This document shows, piece by piece, positions 7,808 through 27,691 of a DNA stretch of 27,691 bases (position 1 is its first letter; each line of letters begins with the position of its first letter). Below the pieces are notes generated by a model, which worked only from the letters and a program-made list of their open reading frames with translations, was not told the origin of the DNA and made no database searches. Source of the DNA: a virus; the IMG/VR virus record IMGVR_UViG_3300028025_001434, positions 1-27,691 of that record; one strand, 5' to 3'. The position numbers were made by a program, and so were the translations under genes.

Positions 7808-8455
7808 ATGGCTGCTTATGGAAAAGGCCGATACGGCTATGGTAGCTGGGGCTTTGGAGAGGCCGGTGCTGCATTAACTGGCAATCAAGCCGCTGGTGCT
7901 GTTGGCAACTTGCTGGCCAGCAGGTCAGTCCAAGAGAATGGGAATATTGCCACTGGCAATGTTGGAACAGTCGGGCTGACAAGGACTATTGCCATCACAG
8001 GCAATGCGGCCACCTGTGGTATTGGTTCGGTCTTAGCAGTATCAAGCAAGGCACTCACGGGCAATGCAGCCACTGGTGCAGTTGGCAGTGTTAATGAATC
8101 TGTTTTTATTGCCGTCACCGGCAACACGGCCACAGGCTCTGTTGGCTCTGTCAGCGTCACCAGCACAGCGGCGATCACCGGCAACAGCGCCACAGGTGCT
8201 GTCGGGACGATGGGCGCAGAAGTCATATCGTTCCAAGACATCACTGGTGTTGAGGGTACGGGAGCTGTTGGCACTGCTGTCGGCGTTATCTCGGTTGAGA
8301 TCAGCGGAAATGCAGCCACTGGATCAGTGGGCATCATCTTTGGCTTTGGCTGGGGTGCGATACCAGACAGCGCAGAAACTTACACACCAATCAGCGACAG
8401 TGCAGAAACTTGGACTGCAATCGTTGATAATTCAGAGACTTGGTTACCTATTTAG
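7808..8455 (+). CDS. tandem-repeat virion protein
   Basis: This gene encodes 215 residues. After a glycine/tyrosine-rich start (KGRYGYGSWGFGE) come eight units resembling ITGNAATGAVGSV, starting near residues 23, 43, 63, 83, 103, 123, 145 and 165; six of the seven steps are exactly 20 residues. The C-terminus has three shorter 10-residue repeats of the type DSAETWTAI (about 185-215), ending in WLPI. Low charge and abundant T, G, A and V predict a beta-rich, solenoid-like extended protein. Similar repeat proteins are seen in phage tail or neck regions; the exact role is unknown. Position directly before the tail fibre supports an adhesin or stalk role. AAGGGG precedes the ATG. Confidence 0.72.
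   Translation: MAAYGKGRYGYGSWGFGEAGAALTGNQAAGAVGNLLASRSVQENGNIATGNVGTVGLTRTIAITGNAATCGIGSVLAVSSKALTGNAATGAVGSVNESVFIAVTGNTATGSVGSVSVTSTAAITGNSATGAVGTMGAEVISFQDITGVEGTGAVGTAVGVISVEISGNAATGSVGIIFGFGWGAIPDSAETYTPISDSAETWTAIVDNSETWLPI
7874..8338 (+). repeat. eight imperfect coding repeats, about 60 bp each
   Basis: The coding repeat unit is (I/L/V)TGN-x-ATG-x-VG-(S/T)-V followed by a variable spacer to a total of 20 residues. Only one interval is 22 residues. The core is conserved while spacers diverge, indicating selection on protein structure rather than recent duplication. Confidence 0.85.
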
Positions 8456-8464
8456 GAGCACGCA

Positions 8465-9337
8465 ATGGCAGATACCACCACCACCAACCTACTGCTGACA
8501 AAGCCAGAGGTAGGGGCATCAACAGACACCTGGGGGACAAAGATCAACACCGACCTAGACTCGGTGGACGCCATCTTTGCAGCAGCCGGCACAGGCACAT
8601 CTGTTGGTCTGAATGTCGGCTCTGGTAAGGTTTTGACTGTTGGCGGGATTGCATCTCATGCAGCAGGCTCTGCGGCTGCGCCAACCATCACAGCCACAGG
8701 CGACACCAACACCGGCATCTTCTTCCCAGCGGCTGACACCATTGCTTTTGCTGAAGGTGGGGTTGAGGCTGTCAGGATTGATGCCTCTGGCAATGTGGGG
8801 ATTGGGACGAGTTCGCCCACAAGCAAATTAAATGTTAATGGGGGGCGTTCTGATTTTTTTGCAAACAGCAATCCATATGCCATAGGCGTAGCGTATAACA
8901 GTTCAGGCGGCAATTTTTATATTGGCGCAACAACCGGAGCAACCCCTGACCTTGTCTTTAGCGATGCAACGGCAACAGAACGCGCCCGTATCACTTCCGG
9001 CGGCAACTTCCAATTTAACTCCGGTTTCGGCTCTGTTGCCACTGCCTATGGTTGCCGTGCATGGGTGAACTTCAATGGCACTGGCACTGTGGCAATTCGT
9101 GCAAGTGGGAATGTCACATCAATTACAGATAATGGCACTGGTGATTACACAGTGAACTTCACTACTGCTATGCCTGATGCAAATTACGCTCCCATGATAA
9201 CGGCTGACCGTGGAGGACATGGCGCAATAGGCTACAAACCCACCACAATTACGACAAGTAGTTATCGGTTTACTGAGACACAACAAGCGGCAACAGCTAT
9301 TGATTCTGAGTTTGTCTCAGTCACCATTTTCCGTTGA
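8465..9337 (+). CDS. tail fibre protein, mosaic
   Basis: This 290-residue protein has three parts. The N-terminal segment (about 1-40: [20 protein letters not shown]) is a widely shared virion-attachment module. The middle carries [20 protein letters not shown] and the stem motif [19 protein letters not shown], which are common in fibres of aquatic phages. The distal part (about 125-290) is beta-rich and ends with a [15 protein letters not shown] segment typical of fibre tips. Base composition drops sharply where the distal part begins (about 55 percent GC at 8521-8580, 37 percent at 8821-8880), consistent with exchange of the receptor-binding tip. AGGAG precedes the start. It is the best receptor-binding candidate in the window. 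Confidence 0.85.
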
Positions 9338-21130: not shown

Positions 21131-22600
21131 ATGGCCCTGCTTGATGACGAAGAGTTGTTGCCATTCTTTGGCAACCCCAACATCCAGCGCCAAGGTGCAA
21201 GGGCCAGAGCCTTGGCCGCGCAGCGTGATGTCAATACACTGCCTGACCCGCGCACCTATGCTGCCGTCTCTGGCCTGCTTGGTACTGCCCCTGACCAGAT
21301 GGGTTTCAGTGTTCTGAATCCTCAGTATGAGTCGATCATGCAGACCGCCCGTCCGGCCTTTGCTACCGGCACGGCATTGGGTGTTGCTCCATTGGCAAGG
21401 GTATTCCAAGCCCCAGCAATGGCACTTGGCCGCGCTGGTGAACGCATGGCCGAAAGGGTTGTGCCTCAGATCATGCAGCGTGGCGGCTTGCCGGCTGATC
21501 TATTGCAGGGCATGGCGCAGGGCAGCCGGTCAAATGTCTATTTGCCAAGCACTCCATTAAAACCAAATCCCGAAGTTGGTACTCGGTACGACCGAGATTT
21601 TATGGGTGGACTTGCACCAAAGACGCCAGTAAAGCTGGAAGACTATCAAGGCGCTGGACTCATGGTTATGCCGTGGGATAGCACAAGCAGGAACTACAAA
21701 ATTTCCGGCGTATCAGGAGAAACATTCCCGTCTCCAATCATTACTCATGGAGGCCAAGATTACGCCCGTGACTTGGCCCATATGCAACAAGGAATCGGCG
21801 GGGCTTCTGGTCTTTCCATTGCCAAACGAATCAGGGATCGTGACAAAATTGCGCGTCAAGAAAATATCATGGCTGGCGGCACTGGAGAAATTCTTCATCT
21901 CCCAATTACGATGGGCGCTGGATCTGAAAACTTCAGTGTCATGCCGGCTCAAGGTTTGCTGCAACTTCTTGACATGCGGCAACTGTCCAAAAAACAAGTT
22001 GGCAACCTTGATGAATCCATCCGCAATTTTAAAATTGCAAAAGGCTCTGGAGAAAAAAGAAAAATCACAACGCCATTTGAAAACTTTGCTGGGCTGACCT
22101 CAGAAGAAGGCCGCATCCAATTGATGACCGGTGAGGGCATAAAAGGCACTGCTGGAGAATTGCGCAAAGCAATGGTAGATCGCTTGACCACAAAGGGCAA
22201 TCAGGAATTGCTTGGATTCAATGCAGAAGACTTATCTGCTGCATTAACTGACCCTGCCCTTGCTGGTGTGCCAAAGGGATATGTCGGCAACACAGTTCTG
22301 ATGACCGACCCTCTCGGTATGCACTTGAGGCCATCGTCAAACCCATCGTACAACACAGACTTCACGGCTCAATATCTTGGGACACTTGGACAAAGCGTTC
22401 CAATTGAAGCCCTGAAGCCTGGTCTGATGTCATCATTGATGAATCAATTCTCAAAGAAAAAAGGCGATGTCCGAAACATGGCACTTGGTGCTTTGGAAAA
22501 GCGTAAAGAAGGCATATCAACAATGGTCGATCAACAGATGATTGACAACTACTACAAGTACCTTGAGCAGCAAAGAAATCTTGGCTTATTAGGTAATTGA
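21131..22600 (+). CDS. mosaic virion protein, possible polyvalent ejected effector
   Basis: This gene encodes 489 residues. The N-terminal ~140 residues resemble neighbouring virion proteins (DDEELLPFFGNPNIQRQGAR; a hydrophobic Ala-rich segment near 80-110) and are GC-rich (62-63 percent in two sampled lines). From about residue 145 the composition falls (45, 43 and 35 percent in later lines), and the sequence becomes a different type of domain with YKISGVSGETFPSPIITHGG, DYARDLAHMQQ and a lysine-rich GSGEKRKITTPFENFAG segment. That resembles large polyvalent protein domains carried by phages, some of which are toxins or modifying enzymes, but no catalytic residues can be named. It is the last gene of the virion operon, a site where effector domains are often swapped. 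Confidence 0.65.
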   Translation: MALLDDEELLPFFGNPNIQRQGARARALAAQRDVNTLPDPRTYAAVSGLLGTAPDQMGFSVLNPQYESIMQTARPAFATGTALGVAPLARVFQAPAMALGRAGERMAERVVPQIMQRGGLPADLLQGMAQGSRSNVYLPSTPLKPNPEVGTRYDRDFMGGLAPKTPVKLEDYQGAGLMVMPWDSTSRNYKISGVSGETFPSPIITHGGQDYARDLAHMQQGIGGASGLSIAKRIRDRDKIARQENIMAGGTGEILHLPITMGAGSENFSVMPAQGLLQLLDMRQLSKKQVGNLDESIRNFKIAKGSGEKRKITTPFENFAGLTSEEGRIQLMTGEGIKGTAGELRKAMVDRLTTKGNQELLGFNAEDLSAALTDPALAGVPKGYVGNTVLMTDPLGMHLRPSSNPSYNTDFTAQYLGTLGQSVPIEALKPGLMSSLMNQFSKKKGDVRNMALGALEKRKEGISTMVDQQMIDNYYKYLEQQRNLGLLGN

Positions 22601-22756
22601 TTCATCCATGTCAATGGACATCAATTGAGATTGAAGCGCAGCAATTGCGTCTTGCAAGAAGATGACAAAGTCAACATCATCAGATTTAAGCAAGTCACGC
22701 GAAATCTTTAGGTCAATTGCGCCAGAGTCTTGCCGTGTAATTTTAATTTCTTTCAT
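22589..22756 (-). CDS. small acidic protein, last gene of minus-strand operon
   Basis: This 55-residue protein begins MKEIKITRQDSGAIDLKISR and ends in a short acidic helix (LMSIDMDESIT). The start overlaps the stop of the gene upstream on the minus strand as ATGA. Its last 12 bases run antisense into the 3' end of the virion operon. A beta-hairpin then helix layout is likely; I do not recognise the family. Its lower GC content and strict coupling argue that it is real despite its length. Confidence 0.6.
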   Translation of the reverse strand: MKEIKITRQDSGAIDLKISRDLLKSDDVDFVIFLQDAIAALQSQLMSIDMDESIT

Positions 22757-23133
22757 CTCATCCCCCCAAAAAATGCTGCTGTCAGTGGGTCGATCTTGAT
22801 CTTTCGATTCCTCTGGCGGCGGCGTGCATTTAAAAAGTCCTTGTCATCTGCGCTCATCTTGTGGCGCTTTTTGCGCATGCGCTCGGCGGCTGTAAACGAT
22901 AGCGGCCTTGGTGCATCTGGCTCACTGCCCAGCGTCAGCAAGGCCGTGGTCATGTTGCCGGACTTCTCATACCCATGCACCCGCACCACCTTGGCCTTGC
23001 GCAGTGCGCGAACATTGTCGTATGCGGTGGCCAAGGCGCAGGGCAGACGCACAGCGATCTCGGCCACACTCAACGGGCCAATGCTCAGCAGCCGGATGAT
23101 GGCGGCTCTATAGACCGGCTTTAGACCGCGCAT
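22753..23133 (-). CDS. winged-helix-like DNA-binding protein
   Basis: I chose the ATG at 23133, preceded by TAGGATGCAAG, over an earlier in-frame ATG at 23220 that would overlap the upstream gene further. The 126-residue product contains RAAIIRLLSIGPLSVAEIAV followed by ATAYDNVRALRKAKVVRVHG, a winged helix-turn-helix of the MarR/IclR-like type (about residues 9-55). The C-terminal half is basic (AERMRKKRHKM and RRRQRNRKIK) and could contact nucleic acid. It overlaps the upstream gene by 26 bases. It could regulate early or late phage genes; target unknown. Confidence 0.72.
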   Translation of the reverse strand: MRGLKPVYRAAIIRLLSIGPLSVAEIAVRLPCALATAYDNVRALRKAKVVRVHGYEKSGNMTTALLTLGSEPDAPRPLSFTAAERMRKKRHKMSADDKDFLNARRRQRNRKIKIDPLTAAFFGGMR

Positions 23134-23296
23134 CTTGCATCCTACGGGTGTACTCACGGCGCAGCATGGCACGCACCACGAAAGCCCTTGTGTGGGCGTC
23201 TTCCGGTATCGCATGGCCATAGCACTCTGGACTGAGTAGATCGTCCATCAGTTCAATGGCGGCCACCAGCGCTGGCTCAAGGACTGGCTCACTCAT
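23108..23296 (-). CDS. small protein of the minus-strand operon
   Basis: This 62-residue protein has an acidic N-terminal half (PVLEPALVAAIELMDDLLSP) and a basic C-terminal helix (VVRAMLRREYTRRMQDARSK). The start overlaps the upstream stop as ATGA, with GAGAAACT just before it. It has no recognised domain; the bipolar charge suggests a small adaptor, antirepressor or inhibitor, which is speculation. Confidence 0.65.
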   Translation of the reverse strand: MSEPVLEPALVAAIELMDDLLSPECYGHAIPEDAHTRAFVVRAMLRREYTRRMQDARSKAGL

Positions 23297-23457
23297 AGTT
23301 TCTCTGCATCTTTTCTGTATGTACGCAAATTCCCAATCAGGGACGGCAGCTTGAACGCATCCATAGCACCTGGTCGGCCTGTGAAGGGTTTCAGTTCAAG
23401 GGGGTTGTATATACCGACCATCTTGTTCAACGCTGGTGGGGGTGTTGTTTTCTTCAT
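23293..23457 (-). CDS. small conserved protein of the minus-strand operon
   Basis: I chose the ATG at 23457, which overlaps the upstream stop as ATGA, over a longer start at 23511 lying inside the upstream gene. The 54-residue product contains PPALNKMVGIYNPLELKPFT and GRPGAMDAFKLPSLIGN, which I recognise as a conserved small phage protein without known function. It is coupled downstream as well. Confidence 0.65.
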   Translation of the reverse strand: MKKTTPPPALNKMVGIYNPLELKPFTGRPGAMDAFKLPSLIGNLRTYRKDAEKL

Positions 23458-23558
23458 GCTGACCACCACGCCACCAGTGCCGCAGCCAAGCCGCAGCCGA
23501 TCACCAAGCACAGCAGATAGTCCAGTGCCGCATCGGCACGATTGCTCAATTTATTCAT
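23454..23558 (-). CDS. single-helix membrane peptide, first gene of the operon
   Basis: This 34-residue peptide is MNKLSNRADA followed by one transmembrane helix (about 12-32: LDYLLCLVIGCGLAAALVAW). A strong ribosome site AAGGAG lies eight bases before the start, and its stop overlaps the next gene as ATGA. The clear ribosome site is the best in the operon, so this is likely the entry point for its ribosomes. Confidence 0.65.
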   Translation of the reverse strand: MNKLSNRADAALDYLLCLVIGCGLAAALVAWWSA

Positions 23559-23655
23559 GTTGCTCTCCTTGAGTTAATGTGTTACGAAGTTTACATCAAA
23601 TAAACTAATTCGCATAGTAGTCAATAAATTGATCTGTTGTTGCTAAAATACACCC
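23559..23655. promoter_or_regulatory. divergent promoter/operator region
   Basis: This 97-base gap separates the minus-strand operon from the plus-strand HTH gene. An inverted repeat AGTTTA-N7-TAAACT lies at 23588-23606, and TCAAT-AA-ATTGA at 23621-23632. On the minus strand TTGACT (23624-23619) is a good -35 box with a poor -10 (TATTTG) 16 bases further, inside the first repeat. On the plus strand TAAAAT at 23644-23649 is a clear -10 with no good -35. The arrangement resembles a small repressor-controlled switch. Confidence 0.6.
23644..23649 (+). promoter_or_regulatory. -10 box of the HTH gene, leaderless transcript predicted
   Basis: TAAAAT ends six bases before the ATG at 23656, so the first transcribed base should be at or next to the start codon. 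No ribosome site fits between them. Lambda cI from PRM is the known parallel for a leaderless repressor mRNA. Confidence 0.5.
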
Positions 23656-23850
23656 ATGCAATCAGTACAAGATATTCGGGATAAGGCCAGAGAGCATGGC
23701 ATCAGGATGAATGCCGTATGCCGTGAGGCTGGCATCCAGCAGCCGCAGGTGAGCCGCTGGATGTCTGGGTCTGTCAAGCCCCTTTGGGATTCAGTCAACC
23801 AACTTGAGCAGGCGCTGCTCAAGCTGATTGATCAAAAATCACCAGTCTGA
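23656..23850 (+). CDS. Cro/CI-like helix-turn-helix regulator
   Basis: This 64-residue protein is a single small HTH domain. NAVCREAGIQQPQVSRWMSG (residues 19-38) is the helix-turn-helix, with recognition residues QQPQVSRW. A short C-terminal helix rich in leucine follows (LEQALLKLIDQK). The size and pattern match Cro/YdaS-type phage regulators rather than a full CI, as there is no self-cleaving domain. The last 12 bases overlap the convergent SSB gene. It most likely binds the inverted repeats in the divergent gap; the target is inferred from position. Confidence 0.8.
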   Translation: MQSVQDIRDKAREHGIRMNAVCREAGIQQPQVSRWMSGSVKPLWDSVNQLEQALLKLIDQKSPV

Positions 23851-24405
23851 GGACTCGGCGGCAGCGGCGGCTGGTGCAGCCGACTTGCCGATACCAAAGT
23901 CATCAGCGGCACTTGGCTTGGAGCCGCCCAGTGGCTGGCCCTTCTTGAGCAACAAGATGTTGTTCAGGCCAAACGACACGCCATTGTTGCCAGCTTGGCT
24001 GTAGGCATACGCATTCAGGCTCACCCGCACATAGTCGCCACTGACAATATCGTCAGCGCCAATCAGGTCATTGCCGTGGGCGTCAATAGCACCAGGCTTG
24101 GCGGTGCTTTTGACATTGCAAAAGAAGTGGCCGGCGTACTCTTTGCCTAGCGGCGACCCGTCTGTCTTGGTTTCAGTGTCGCCATCACGCAATGGGTTGC
24201 GGATGTTTTTTGGCACTTTGTCACCGAACTTGGCGACCAGCGCCTCTTTGGCTGCTGCCTTCAAAGCGGCTAGCGTTTCTTTGTCGGTCTTGGGGATCAG
24301 GATCTGAGTGGAGAACTCATCCTTGCCGTTCATTTCGTTCTTGCGGCTCTGCAAGCCTGAGAAGTAGGAGGTGCGCACCTCGCCGGTTGTGACTCTTGTT
24401 GACAT
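23839..24405 (-). CDS. single-stranded DNA-binding protein (Enc34/DUF2815-type)
   Basis: This 188-residue protein is an OB-fold ssDNA-binding protein of the DUF2815/Enc34 type. Signature segments are RTSYFSGLQSRKNEMNGKDE, FSTQILIPKTDKETLAALKA, RNPLRDGDTETKTDGSPL, and VSGDYVRVSLNAYAYSQAG with GVSFGLNNILLLKKGQPLGG. The C-terminus is Ala-rich and finishes in ESSDW, as in SSB tails that recruit partners. AAGGAAACGATCAA before the start is a good ribosome site. It is on the minus strand, divergent from the helicase gene, and convergent with the HTH regulator. It protects and organises replicating phage DNA. Confidence 0.88.
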   Translation of the reverse strand: MSTRVTTGEVRTSYFSGLQSRKNEMNGKDEFSTQILIPKTDKETLAALKAAAKEALVAKFGDKVPKNIRNPLRDGDTETKTDGSPLGKEYAGHFFCNVKSTAKPGAIDAHGNDLIGADDIVSGDYVRVSLNAYAYSQAGNNGVSFGLNNILLLKKGQPLGGSKPSAADDFGIGKSAAPAAAAAESSDW

Positions 24406-24554
24406 TTGATCGTTTCCTTTTGGTTGATCGTTTTCAGGTTTTCAGCCTGACCAAAGCGGCCAGACAATTGCACTTTAGCACAAATAAATGTTGCAAGTGT
24501 TTTTTCTTTGAGCCACAATCAAGATTCCATAAACCGCTGAAAACGAGGAAAACG
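24406..24554. promoter_or_regulatory. divergent leader between SSB and helicase genes
   Basis: This 149-base gap holds the upstream regions of both genes. CTGAAAACGA occurs before each: on the plus strand at 24537-24546 ahead of the helicase ATG, and on the minus strand at 24428-24437 ahead of the SSB start, where CTGAAAAC is repeated in tandem. An inverted repeat TCAGG-N7-CCTGA lies at 24434-24450. No strong -35/-10 pair is clear, though TTGCAA at 24491 is a candidate -35. Confidence 0.4.
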
Positions 24555-25778
24555 ATGAAACTGTTCCCCCATCAAGAAGAGGCCAAGCAATTTCTGCTGG
24601 ACAAGAGGCGAGCCATCCTTGCCGACCAGCCGAGGGTGGGCAAGACCCTGCCGGCGGCAGCGGCGGCTCTGCAACACCTGCCGGCCATCGTGGTCTGCCC
24701 AGCTATCGCCAAGACTGTCTGGGAAGCGGCATTCAACAATCTCGACCCTTCAGTGCCAGTGAAAGTCATCACTGGCAAGAAGCAGGCGGCAGAGATTATT
24801 GCCAGTGGCGTGACCATCGTGAATTACGACATCCTGAGCAGTGTTACGGCTTTTACAGGAATTAAAACTGTGGTGTTTGACGAGTGCCACAGGCTCAAAA
24901 ACAACAAGGCCATCCGCACCAAAGCGGCCATGCTGATGATGAAAAAGATCGACAGGGTCTATGCCCTGTCCGGCACGCCCATCCCCAATCGGCCCATCGA
25001 ACTCTGGCCGATCCTCCACGGGCTGGGCATCTACCGAGGCGGCTGGTTTGACTTTGCGGCGCGGTACGCCAAGATGTGGAGTGCTCCCTGGGGCATGGAT
25101 GTCAGCGGTGCGTCCAACATTCCTGAACTCAAAGCGCTGATGCGCCCCCATGTCCTGCGCAGGAAGAAGGAGGACATCTTCATGGACTACAAGCAGCCAC
25201 AGGTGAGCTTGGTGACCTTTGACCTGCCCGTGGACAAGCGCGAGCAGCAGTTTGATGCCGATGCCTTGGTGGCCAATCCAAACGCCCTGATGGCCTTTGA
25301 GGGGCTTGCCGAGATCATGCGCGAAGCAGGTATGCGCAAGATCAAGGCGGCATCCGAATTCATCAGCGACCTGTTGCAATCCGGTGAGCCTGTTGTCGTA
25401 TTCGCGCACCACAAGGATGTGGTGTTTGGGCTGGTCGAGGAACTTAAAGACCACAAGCCGGTAGTGGTGGTGGGCGACACGCCGGCCGCCAAGCGCACAG
25501 AGAACATTGCGGCATTTCAGTCTGGCCAGACCAAGGTGATCGTGGGCAACATTGCGGCCATGTCAGAGGGGGTTGACCTGAGTGCAGCCGACACGATCGT
25601 CTTTGTCGAATGCACTTGGTCAACCTCTGCACTGGAGCAGGCATCCAGCAGGGTGGAGAACATCAACAAGTCAGGCGTCAAGCCGGTGATCTACCTGCTG
25701 ACCATCAGGGCCAGCCTTGACCATAATGTGCTGGCCAAGGTGCTGAAAAAGCAGAATATCGTTAATCAGATCATCTAA
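24555..25778 (+). CDS. SNF2-like DNA helicase/translocase
   Basis: I chose the ATG at 24555, preceded by GAGGAAAACG; open sequence upstream is not protein-like. The 407-residue product is a compact superfamily 2 helicase. Motif I is ADQPRVGKT (23-31, a variant of the usual DEMGLGKT), motif Ia VVCPAIAKTVW, motif II DECHR (109-113), and motif III SGTPIPNRP (139-147). The second RecA-like lobe contains VVVFAHHKDVVFGL, then NIAAMSEGVDLSAADTIVF and a QASSRVENINKSG motif VI in place of the common AEDRxHRIGQ. It likely remodels or anneals DNA forks during replication. The gene is followed by a strong promoter and small genes. Confidence 0.9.
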   Translation: MKLFPHQEEAKQFLLDKRRAILADQPRVGKTLPAAAAALQHLPAIVVCPAIAKTVWEAAFNNLDPSVPVKVITGKKQAAEIIASGVTIVNYDILSSVTAFTGIKTVVFDECHRLKNNKAIRTKAAMLMMKKIDRVYALSGTPIPNRPIELWPILHGLGIYRGGWFDFAARYAKMWSAPWGMDVSGASNIPELKALMRPHVLRRKKEDIFMDYKQPQVSLVTFDLPVDKREQQFDADALVANPNALMAFEGLAEIMREAGMRKIKAASEFISDLLQSGEPVVVFAHHKDVVFGLVEELKDHKPVVVVGDTPAAKRTENIAAFQSGQTKVIVGNIAAMSEGVDLSAADTIVFVECTWSTSALEQASSRVENINKSGVKPVIYLLTIRASLDHNVLAKVLKKQNIVNQII

Positions 25779-25799
25779 TGGTAAACACCTACGATTTAG

Positions 25800-25829
25800 T
25801 TGTTGCGTTACCGGAAACAGTGTTATAGT
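25800..25829 (+). promoter_or_regulatory. sigma70-type promoter before small early genes
   Basis: TTGTTG and TATAGT are separated by 18 bases; this is the best -35/-10 pair I can see on the plus strand of the early region. Transcription would start near 25836, giving a leader of about 25 bases with CGGAG before the ATG at 25861. Confidence 0.65.
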
Positions 25830-25860
25830 AGAGGCTCATTAACACAACGGAGCAAACGAA

Positions 25861-26079
25861 ATGACAACTTCAGCCTCTTACTTTCTTTCATATGCCTGCG
25901 CTGAAACCCTTGAAGTCGGCATCATCGAATTCGATACTTACGATGAGGCGTTCACAGCCTACGGTTGTCACGAAATTTCAGGCTACTCGGTTGTGATCCG
26001 CGACATCAATATGTTTGGCGCACTGGCCGCTGAAATCCGCAAAGACAAAGGCTACGCTGACCGCCGCGCCACTGCCTAA
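25861..26079 (+). CDS. small protein, unknown
   Basis: This 72-residue protein begins MTTSASYFLSYACAETLEVG and has a second half with SGYSVVIRDINMFGALAAEI and a basic end. It is the first gene after a strong promoter, with CGGAG before the start, so it is likely an early protein. No family is recognised. A hairpin with a UACG loop follows seven bases after its stop. Confidence 0.65.
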   Translation: MTTSASYFLSYACAETLEVGIIEFDTYDEAFTAYGCHEISGYSVVIRDINMFGALAAEIRKDKGYADRRATA

Positions 26080-26082
26080 ACC

Positions 26083-26101
26083 AAACGGGGCTACGGCCCC
26101 A
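26083..26101 (+). repeat. UACG-tetraloop hairpin, copy 1
   Basis: AAACGGGGCTACGGCCCCA forms a five-base-pair GGGGC/GCCCC stem closed on a TACG loop, an extra-stable C(UNCG)G tetraloop when transcribed. No T tract follows; AAAGGAG for the next gene lies only three bases further. An identical 19-base element lies at 26340. Confidence 0.85.
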
Positions 26102-26116
26102 TCAAAGGAGAAAATT

Positions 26117-26335
26117 ATGTTTGCACATCGTATTGAAACCGCCGCCCAATCTGCCCACGCTGCTGCTGCGCCCTACATGGCCAGCAAGGCAGAGATTTGC
26201 GATGCAATTCAGCCCATCATCACAGAGTTGCAGCAGATGCCTCGCGCTCAAGCAGTCGCCTACATCAGGGAGAGTTTTTCTCACATTGGGCATCAAGCGC
26301 TTGCGGTGCGTATGTTCAAGGGCCAGCCAGTCTGA
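26117..26335 (+). CDS. small helical protein, unknown
   Basis: This 72-residue protein is alanine-rich and helical: RIETAAQSAHAAAAPYMASK, then EICDAIQPIITELQQM and RESFSHIGHQALAVRM. The start has an excellent ribosome site AAAGGAG six bases upstream. It is flanked by the two hairpin copies. No family is recognised. Confidence 0.7.
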   Translation: MFAHRIETAAQSAHAAAAPYMASKAEICDAIQPIITELQQMPRAQAVAYIRESFSHIGHQALAVRMFKGQPV

Positions 26336-26339
26336 AACT

Positions 26340-26358
26340 AAACGGGGCTACGGCCCCA
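26340..26358 (+). repeat. UACG-tetraloop hairpin, copy 2
   Basis: This second copy is identical to the element at 26083 over 19 bases (AAACGGGGCTACGGCCCCA) and again follows a stop codon by a few bases. The start of the next gene comes seven bases after the stem, leaving no room for a ribosome site. Confidence 0.85.
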
Positions 26359-26364
26359 ATCACC

Positions 26365-26520
26365 ATGACCACCACCCCCACCCAACGAGTCCAAGCACTG
26401 CGCCAGCGCCGAAAGGATGCTGGCCTAGTGCGGGTCGAGTACTACCTCACCAAGCCGCAGGCCGAGAAGGTCAAGGCACTCATCTCCAAGTTAACCAAGG
26501 AACAACATGCAGCACACTGA
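26365..26520 (+). CDS. small RHH-like basic protein
   Basis: This 51-residue protein contains RVQALRQRRKDAGLVRVEYY followed by TKPQAEKVKALISKL. A basic start, a short strand and a helix suggest a ribbon-helix-helix DNA-binding protein, similar to small phage proteins with an RRKxAGLVRVE motif. There is no ribosome site before the ATG because the hairpin sits there, so translation may depend on upstream ribosomes. The end overlaps the nuclease start by 14 bases. Confidence 0.6.
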   Translation: MTTTPTQRVQALRQRRKDAGLVRVEYYLTKPQAEKVKALISKLTKEQHAAH

Positions 26521-27559
26521 CCGCAAACACGCCCGTCTCTCAGCATCACGCATGGATCGGGTTATGTCCTGTCCAGGTAGTTACCGGCTGGAAAGCCTCA
26601 TGCCCTACGAGCCGGCTGGGCCGGCTGCCGCCAAGGGTACGGCCATCCATGAACTGTCAGAGAAAATGCTGCGGGGTGAGGAGATTGACAACCCAGACAT
26701 TGACCCCGAATACATCACGATGGCGCGGGAGTATGCCGACTTTGTAAACAGCTACTTTGCCAACCCCCGTAAGAAGTTGATCGAAGTCAATGTGGATGAA
26801 GGACTGAAGTCTATCCACTACGCGCTCGGCGGCACTGCCGATGCCATCCTTGTCGAGGGCGACACACTTGCATGTTTAGATTTAAAAACCGGCAGGGTTG
26901 CAGTCAGTGCTGAAGACAACATGCAGCTTAAAACATACGCGCTTGGCGCAATGCTCAAGCTCAACGCGCCAGAGTCAATCAATGTTGATCTGGTGATATT
27001 CCAACCTGGCACTGGCGTATCCGTACACAAGACCACGGGGGCAGAGCTAAAAAAGCACGGCCACGACCTGCTAGCTGCTGCCACCCTCGCGCTGACCGAT
27101 GACGCACCGACCAACCCATCTACCAGTGCTTGCCGCTACTGCAAGGCCAAGCCCATCTGCCCAAGCATGCGGCAGAAGGTGCAGGACAACGCACGCAAAG
27201 AGTTTGCAGACATCGTGAAGCAGGTTGAGAAGGGTGAGGTGGTCGCAGTGCCGCCAGTCACCCCTGACATGATCGAACTGGCGCAGCTTGCTGGGATGTG
27301 GTCTGAGGCAGTGCTGGAGTCAGCCAAGCGTCAGATCACCGAGGGGTCAACTATCCAAGGCTGGACACTGCGACCAGGTCGCAAGACCAAGTTCTGGAAG
27401 TCTGACGCCTTGGCCTACGAGGCTCTGAAGTCCTACCCGCAAGCATTCGACCTGAAGTCGCCATCGGCCATTGCCAAGCTGGACATCACCATCAGCGATG
27501 ACCTGATCGGTGAGAAGCATGCTGCTGCCAGCTTGGTCAAAGAAAAGGCCAAGGACTAG
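26507..27559 (+). CDS. PD-(D/E)XK nuclease, DUF2800/Cas4-like with Fe-S cluster
   Basis: This 350-residue protein is a DUF2800-family nuclease related to Cas4, AddB and RecB nuclease domains. Active-site residues are H48 (KGTAIHEL), D112 (GGTADAIL), D125 and K127 (LDLKTGR), and Q140 (QLKTYAL). Four cysteines that would bind a 4Fe-4S cluster are C22 (MSCPGS) and C209, C212 and C218 (CRYCKAKPICP). In phages it is usually found near the Enc34-type SSB, as here, and may process recombination or packaging ends. AAGGA lies five bases before the start. A hairpin follows it. Confidence 0.92.
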   Translation: MQHTDRKHARLSASRMDRVMSCPGSYRLESLMPYEPAGPAAAKGTAIHELSEKMLRGEEIDNPDIDPEYITMAREYADFVNSYFANPRKKLIEVNVDEGLKSIHYALGGTADAILVEGDTLACLDLKTGRVAVSAEDNMQLKTYALGAMLKLNAPESINVDLVIFQPGTGVSVHKTTGAELKKHGHDLLAAATLALTDDAPTNPSTSACRYCKAKPICPSMRQKVQDNARKEFADIVKQVEKGEVVAVPPVTPDMIELAQLAGMWSEAVLESAKRQITEGSTIQGWTLRPGRKTKFWKSDALAYEALKSYPQAFDLKSPSAIAKLDITISDDLIGEKHAAASLVKEKAKD

Positions 27560-27573
27560 AATTGCTGTCCCAC

Positions 27574-27609
27574 AAAGAAAAACCCCTGACGGCGTCAACC
27601 ATCAGGGGT
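27574..27609 (-). terminator. intrinsic terminator reading on the minus strand
   Basis: ACCCCTGA at 27582-27589 pairs with TCAGGGGT at 27602-27609. On the minus strand the stem is followed by TTTTTCTTT, a good T tract. On the plus strand no T tract follows. It would stop transcription arriving from the right edge, or act as a plus-strand 3' stabiliser for the nuclease message. Confidence 0.75.
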
Positions 27610-27626
27610 AACTAGCCTCCAGCTAG

Positions 27627-27668
27627 AAGGAGAACAACTTGTCATCAACTGTGAGATTAACGACATGA
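27627..27668 (+). other. ribosome site with a possible leader peptide
   Basis: AAGGAG at 27627-27632 is followed after six bases by TTG (27639), opening a nine-codon frame whose TGA overlaps the ATG at 27665 as ATGA. This could be a coupled leader peptide for the following gene, or the true gene may start at a non-ATG codon. Confidence 0.35.
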
Positions 27669-27691
27669 GTATTTTACCAAAAGCAACGGCC
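27665..27691 (+). CDS. start of an unidentified gene, cut by the window edge
   Basis: An ATG at 27665 begins MSILPKATA and stays open to the last base. The ribosome site AAGGAG lies 32 bases upstream, too far for direct use, so translation would need the short frame before it. Too little is visible for identification. Confidence 0.35.

Follow-up and report, generated by a model that had tools for sequence, protein, structure and literature searches.

G-C stems with a UUCG loop are familiar at gene ends as intrinsic terminators. Intergenic CUUCGG hairpins have long been known in phages, where they lie predominantly between genes (Tuerk et al. 1988, as described in an excerpt of PMC8948821), and the functions given in that excerpt vary, including transcript stability and reverse transcriptase stops. 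In T4-like phages, PeSL (promoter early stem-loop) cassettes have been tied to gene shuffling (Arbiol 2010 and Comeau 2014, via excerpts of PMC4503421), and the SAS/ESAS (start-associated sequences) of cluster K mycobacteriophages are short repeats at the borders of non-structural genes, with function unknown according to an excerpt of PMC3203893. No description of the element reported here was found in the literature on UUCG/CUUCGG tetraloops and gene-boundary hairpins, and the available portion of PMC3014915 holds nothing on it. How mosaic phages express small foreign genes without disturbing the neighbours is an open question.

The element belongs with the intergenic CUUCGG hairpins, being a T-less, promoter-less variant with natural loop exchange. 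The short stem, the extra-stable tetraloop and the intergenic position are shared, the loop being UACG in the window and UUCG and others in relatives. In contrast to the phage CUUCGG hairpins, UACG, GNRA and CACG/CUCG replace UUCG here, also at orthologous places, and the stem is near-constant, the distance from the stop narrow and the genes small, with changing neighbours. Like the PeSL cassettes, as far as the excerpts describe them, it is a repeated stem-loop at gene borders and may be associated with gene shuffling; unlike them, it has neither a promoter beside every copy nor a U tract, and a single promoter-like motif stands at the start of the gene slot. A unit of stem-loop and early promoter of the PeSL type was not found, only 16 nt (with the Shine-Dalgarno sequence, SD) following the stem of copy 1 and 7 nt that of copy 2. 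SAS, in the excerpted account, go with the start of the gene behind them and are constant in sequence; the present hairpin accompanies the upstream gene and varies in its loop. From intrinsic terminators it differs in mostly lacking the T tract and in the short distance to the next SD.

The window, a stretch of 27,691 nt, is a whole IMG/VR record. A search of it found two exact + strand copies of a 19-mer (Table 1) and no further copy with up to 3 mismatches, and the expectation from 100 shuffled sequences was a mean of 0.01. The preliminary description had reported an identical 19-base element at 26083 and 26340, shortly after stop codons, and this was confirmed: the stem of copy 1 starts 7 nt past the stop of gene 1 (TAA, 26077–26079) and that of copy 2 starts 8 nt past the stop of gene 2 (TGA, 26333–26335). 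Each copy consists of the stem GGGGC/GCCCC and the loop UACG, with an RNA minimum free energy of −12 kcal/mol. Copy 1 is followed by the SD AAAGGAG and the ATG at 26117, with 16 nt from stem to ATG, and the stem of copy 2 ends 7 nt upstream of the gene 3 ATG at 26365 with no SD in the gap. A search with Rfam covariance models over 22000–27691 at E up to 1 gave three matches, all of them away from the element and below their gathering scores, and a known Rfam RNA was rejected for the element in that region. Genes 1 and 2 matched no Pfam or PHROG family; the product of gene 3 is probably ribbon-helix-helix-like (RHH-like).

Table 1. Genes, hairpin copies and promoter-like motif at the right end of the window.
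Feature	Coordinates	Strand	Remarks
SNF2-type helicase	24555–25778	+	left border of variable gene slot
Promoter/operator-like motif GTTACCGGAAACNNTGTTATAGT	25807–25829	+	slot start; contains imperfect palindrome GTTWCCGGWAAC
Gene 1	25861–26079	+	72 aa; ends in hairpin copy 1
Hairpin copy 1	26083–26101	+	AAAC plus stem-loop 26087–26100; from sequence and fold
Gene 2	26117–26335	+	72 aa; hairpin on both sides
Hairpin copy 2	26340–26358	+	stem-loop 26344–26357; from sequence and fold
Gene 3	26365–26520	+	51 aa; weak match to PHROG 536 (transcriptional regulator, E 0.0012); no SD
DUF2800 / PD-(D/E)XK exonuclease	26507–27559	+	right border of slot

Outside the window, the 19-mer is present in 47 IMG/VR stretches, with 48 copies and some contigs near-identical, and a repeat private to this contig was rejected on this count. 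With the two in the window this makes 50 copies. The prokaryote genome collection scanned gave 0 matches to the exact 19-mer and 0 to the related pattern AACCAAACGGGGCTNCGGCCCC with a free loop base, and a host-derived element was rejected as far as these exact patterns reach, which host or prophage variants would escape. Of 21 whole records, 14 hold the loop-free pattern GGGGCNNNNGCCCC, with 22 occurrences in all (1–4 per record), always on one strand and with a loop of UNCG, UUAG or GAAA; its reversed control never occurs. Eleven of the 21 records were chosen for holding the element, and three of the other 10, among them MW202879.1, have it, once each; 10 of the 22 occurrences are not the copy through which the record was picked.

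The phage group is mostly uncultured. Among named phage records, MW202879.1, from a spring-water sample, is the only relative at the DNA level (76% identity) and also the one close relative of the DUF2800 protein. It carries a UUCG version of the hairpin before its gene 3 relative, behind a different upstream gene and again with no SD. One much-exchanged upstream family gave no protein-level match among named phage records, and as MW202879.1 alone matched at the DNA level, isolates for direct tests are lacking. The natural changes of loop and neighbour at orthologous places provide ready-made test pairs.

All loci were entered for containing the element, except those from protein scans with the DUF2800 protein, gene 1 and one upstream family; counts built on the hairpin pattern scans refer to the matches listed and are lower bounds. 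The refuting pattern, random positions including ones inside genes, was looked for and not seen: 47 of 50 copies lie some 2–20 nt past the stop of a frame with 40 or more open codons. For all 50, a potential start (ATG, GTG or TTG) stands no more than 60 nt away and heads 30 open codons or a frame that continues past the contig end. The three copies lacking a qualifying stop lie near a contig end (L008, L043) or behind a 24-codon frame (L034).

Placement behind stops goes with the loop. A set of 437 tetraloop hairpins with five G-C pairs was collected in the loci in hand, outside our own scan patterns and their antisense. In the loci listed, 88 of 92 C(UNCG)G hairpins of this set stand behind a stop versus 52 of 323 with other loops, the figures for C(GNRA)G and other C(YNMG)G being 6/12 and 6/10. 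Loci found through the DUF2800 protein gave 10/10 for C(UNCG)G, 0/2 for C(GNRA)G and 4/40 for the rest; of these 10 C(UNCG)G hairpins, seven have TTTC directly behind them and seven precede a 47-codon frame, which means that the 10 represent largely one homologous place and fall mostly outside the T-less class.

The T-less class was taken as those elements that combine one of the listed stable loops with a stop and a start and in which a simple rule detects no T tract. This gave 161 in distinct contexts, or 136 without the 25 that sit in structural-type pairs, some of which have GTTCTT-like tails. The stem begins 5–10 nt past the stop in 148 of the 161 (123 of the 136), with a peak at 7 nt (91/161) that is partly owed to the scan patterns. 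The stop codon is TAA in 148/161, and an SD-like sequence precedes the start in 132/161 (123/136), beginning in many copies 1–4 nt past the stem.

UUCG, UACG, GCAA, GAAA, CACG, CUCG and UUUG are stable RNA tetraloops, the families known for extra stability being UNCG/YNMG and GNRA. In single-stranded DNA, loops of the types C(TNNG)G and C(GNNA)G share such stability. In a loop-free scan, with all loci in hand at that stage and identical contexts merged, 129 of the 130 natural contexts among the matches listed carry one of these seven loops: UUCG 65, UACG 31, GCAA 15, GAAA 7, CACG 5, UUUG 3 and CUCG 3, the remaining one being UUCA. With the stem mostly free, GGGGC/GCCCC was found in 72 of 85 contexts, the inverted form in 4 and GGGCC/GGCCC in 2, and 7 were not fully paired. 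Loop exchange is also seen at orthologous junctions. A protein scan with one upstream family, picked for carrying the hairpin, was read for the best 80 of 127 relatives; L434 has no stop in its locus and was left out, giving 79 readable loci. The hairpin stands behind the family gene in 29 of the 79, with the loops UACG 13, UUCG 4, UUUG 3, GAAA 3, CACG 3, GCAA 2 and UUAG 1, and with at least five G-C pairs in 26 of the 29 (L370, L371 and L387 have four), the spacer drifting. At least 11 loop changes were placed on the protein tree, a rough figure as 5 of 21 inner branches are well supported, and identical proteins can bear different loops. The other 50 loci, mostly of more distant members, have no hairpin, and the SD there often touches the stop.

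Taken together, these patterns point to selection acting on a sense-strand RNA hairpin. The near-constant stem leaves evidence of compensatory change thin, and shared descent or a sequence-specific role may account for it. A role at the DNA level is weakened, mainly by the CACG and CUCG loops and by the absence of most other TNNG and GNNA loops.

The hairpin tends to go with the gene in front of it. A protein scan with gene 1 gave nine relatives (contigs matched by name), all nine ending in the hairpin, seven with UACG and two with UUCG; the genes downstream are of two kinds, and the window has a third. The hairpin stands behind homologues of the upstream genes at 149 of 169 sites and before homologues of the downstream genes at 180 of 257 sites, in a comparison that includes the seeds and may count downstream sites repeatedly per locus. 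With protein-found loci only, the figures were 12/13 and 16/59. The higher rate behind upstream homologues suggests that the hairpin tends to follow the upstream gene.

The element thus sits behind stops, exchanges its loop within stable families, mostly lacks a T tract, tracks the upstream gene and often differs in the gene downstream. We read it as an RNA punctuation hairpin, a 3′-end barrier and translational insulator on exchangeable small genes, and hold this reading with roughly even confidence. Small phage genes, many of them exchangeable, bear a five-pair G-C stem with a very stable tetraloop, mostly 5–10 nt past the stop. In a polycistronic mRNA, the presumed context, the hairpin would refold once the terminating ribosome departs, would block 3′-to-5′ exonucleases at the end of the cistron and would prevent the upstream coding RNA from base-pairing with the next ribosome site or becoming translationally coupled to it. 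Each gene would thereby become an independent unit, whichever gene comes next, and such insulation might ease gene exchange. The preliminary description had offered a processing site, a 3′ stabiliser or a translational insulator. An extra-stable hairpin at gene ends on the sense strand that tracks the upstream gene suits a 3′-end element or an insulator, and the earlier interpretation is supported to this extent; processing fared less well, since an SD-like sequence 1–4 nt past the stem leaves little room for a cut that spares the next ribosome site, and in copies of this kind a cut between hairpin and SD is unlikely.

A further step would take the gene plus its hairpin as the unit of exchange, the hairpin being a selected plug-in standard that cheapens the shuffling of small genes; we put this forward only tentatively, as a doubtful extension. 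If it were true, environmental phages would exchange small genes that are complete in themselves, each bringing an RNA end-mark and insulated well enough to work before any neighbour; in the slot, such genes would lie between a promoter/operator and an RHH-like regulator. Against the punctuation reading, the hairpin is dispensable, 50 of 79 upstream-family loci doing without it.

Neighbours often differ within the families. Single linkage of the 161 elements gave 82 upstream and 83 downstream families; some clusters were chained, and the chained clusters of 14 (upstream) and 11 (downstream) were replaced by 9 and 10 direct relatives, the figures used here. The nine members grouped with one upstream protein meet six downstream families, and the 10 grouped with one downstream protein meet six upstream families. 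Among the 136 non-structural elements, 30 of the 121 pairs alike upstream were also alike downstream, and 30 of the 204 pairs alike downstream were alike upstream. That the hairpin links one upstream gene to various downstream genes, and one downstream gene to various upstream ones, would also be expected of a recombination hinge, in which the shared 19–25 bp serve as short homology for phage recombinases swapping small genes and any RNA role is secondary. We regard this explanation as unlikely, and the comparison with other junctions bears on it from both sides. Hairpin junctions were compared with other small-gene junctions near the element in the same loci, using gene calls from a simple script (bins with DUF2800 loci set aside) and counting pairs that are not independent. 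When pairs were anchored on the downstream gene (≥80% identity), the partner was the same in 3 of 25 hairpin pairs versus 23 of 32 at gapped and 87 of 145 at tight junctions (family mean at hairpin junctions 0.05, bootstrap 0.00–0.14), in agreement with a hinge. The upstream anchor gave 14/30 at hairpin junctions, much as at gapped ones (18/40), and 91/111 at tight ones, with overlapping family intervals (0.11–0.58 hairpin, 0.30–0.76 gapped, 0.56–0.83 tight). Neighbours often differ, and the excess over other junctions is seen with the downstream anchor and not clearly with the upstream one.

In the protein-found family, where one chained downstream family overstates sameness in both groups, the same partner was kept in 25/83 pairs with the hairpin versus 148/244 without it at 85–97% identity and in 10/32 versus 25/31 at ≥97%, as a hinge would predict. 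At lower identity there is little or no difference (4/30 versus 22/76 at 75–85%, 13/135 versus 15/209 at 65–75% and 0/45 versus 35/665 at 50–65%). Other observations also go against homology as the cause. Loops and spacers vary, which a homology tract would not favour, and two structural-type pairs with the same kind of hairpin are near-fixed, the partner being kept in 16/17 and 7/8. Moreover, gene 3 changes its upstream partner without a hairpin too (14 loci inspected by eye show six partner types), so exchange does not depend on the hairpin. The hinge comparisons also draw on loci most of which were chosen by the element.

The presence or absence of a T tract bears on a different explanation, which we consider quite improbable: that the element is an intrinsic terminator, whether a weakened sense-strand one or one that stops antisense transcription. 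The preliminary description had noted that the copies have no T tract; sequence and terminator scan bear this out for the + strand of both window copies, but copy 2 is terminator-like on the − strand, where the scan flags it with the tail TTTAGTTTCA. The − strand tails read GTTTGGTTTA after copy 1 and GTTTAGTTTC after copy 2, in line with an antisense terminator. C(UNCG)G hairpins are commonly terminator stems, and in the set of 437 a T tract follows 57 of the 88 stop-adjacent ones, which are to that extent terminator-like; a UUCG version of this stem with a T tract behind it is common at gene ends in these loci. For elements between stop and start, the T tract is found in 102 of 178 with UUCG versus 4 of 51 with UACG. 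Against a terminator, the sense-strand T tract is absent in 123 of the 130 natural contexts among the matches listed, the loops match stable RNA loops only in the sense-strand reading, and the 5′ spacer of other lineages, ACCCAC or similar, gives no T-rich antisense tail. In L051–L158 (e.g. L056, L063, L072 and L093) a GGGGC-UUCG-GCCCC stem with a T tract stands directly before the ribosome binding site, in neighbourhoods that look structural by appearance.

A translational coupling device, in which the hairpin shortens the path from the stop to the SD-less start of gene 3 or replaces the SD helix, is very improbable: gene 3 is indeed SD-less in six hairpin contexts (L028, L032, L048, L050, L193 and the window) with the stem ending 6–7 nt before its ATG, and at 14 loci without a preceding hairpin, inspected by eye, its ATG overlaps or abuts the upstream stop or stands 2 nt past it, but an SD-like sequence follows most other elements and the arrangement is peculiar to one gene family. 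The earlier remark that copy 2 sits where the next ribosome site should be is right as to position; the hairpin is not what replaced the SD, as gene 3 relatives without a preceding hairpin are SD-less too.

The slot that holds both copies was compared in 71 loci with the helicase end and the exonuclease in place, the window and MW202879.1 included. The spacing is 8–13 nt in 35 of them, and 36 carry a cargo of 212–1140 nt. The promoter/operator-like motif (up to 4 mismatches) was found in 19 of the 36 cargo loci, 21–38 nt past the helicase stop except in L195 (570 nt). A relative of gene 3 is encoded in exactly these 19 loci and in none of the remaining 17, which also lack the motif (Fisher p about 1e-10, an overstatement since the loci are related). 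The motif probably acts as promoter and operator; the promoter scan of the window did not flag it. Motif and gene 3 relative together likely form an autoregulated cargo operon, judging from their joint occurrence. Hairpins of the GGGGC type were found in 10 of the 19 motif-bearing cargo loci, in 0 of the other 17 and in 0 of the 35 short-gap loci. The cargo varies, and by eye some of its genes resemble a DNA methyltransferase or an HNH nuclease.

Two further features of the window were noted. A strong terminator-like hairpin of 12 pairs lies on the − strand at 27582–27609, 3′ of the DUF2800 gene, with the tail TTTTCTTTGT. A family of 33-nt repeats has seven copies in 7875–8333, mostly 60 nt apart, and one more at 9078–9110; the seven lie inside the ORF 7808–8455, which perhaps encodes a repetitive tail or fibre-like protein.
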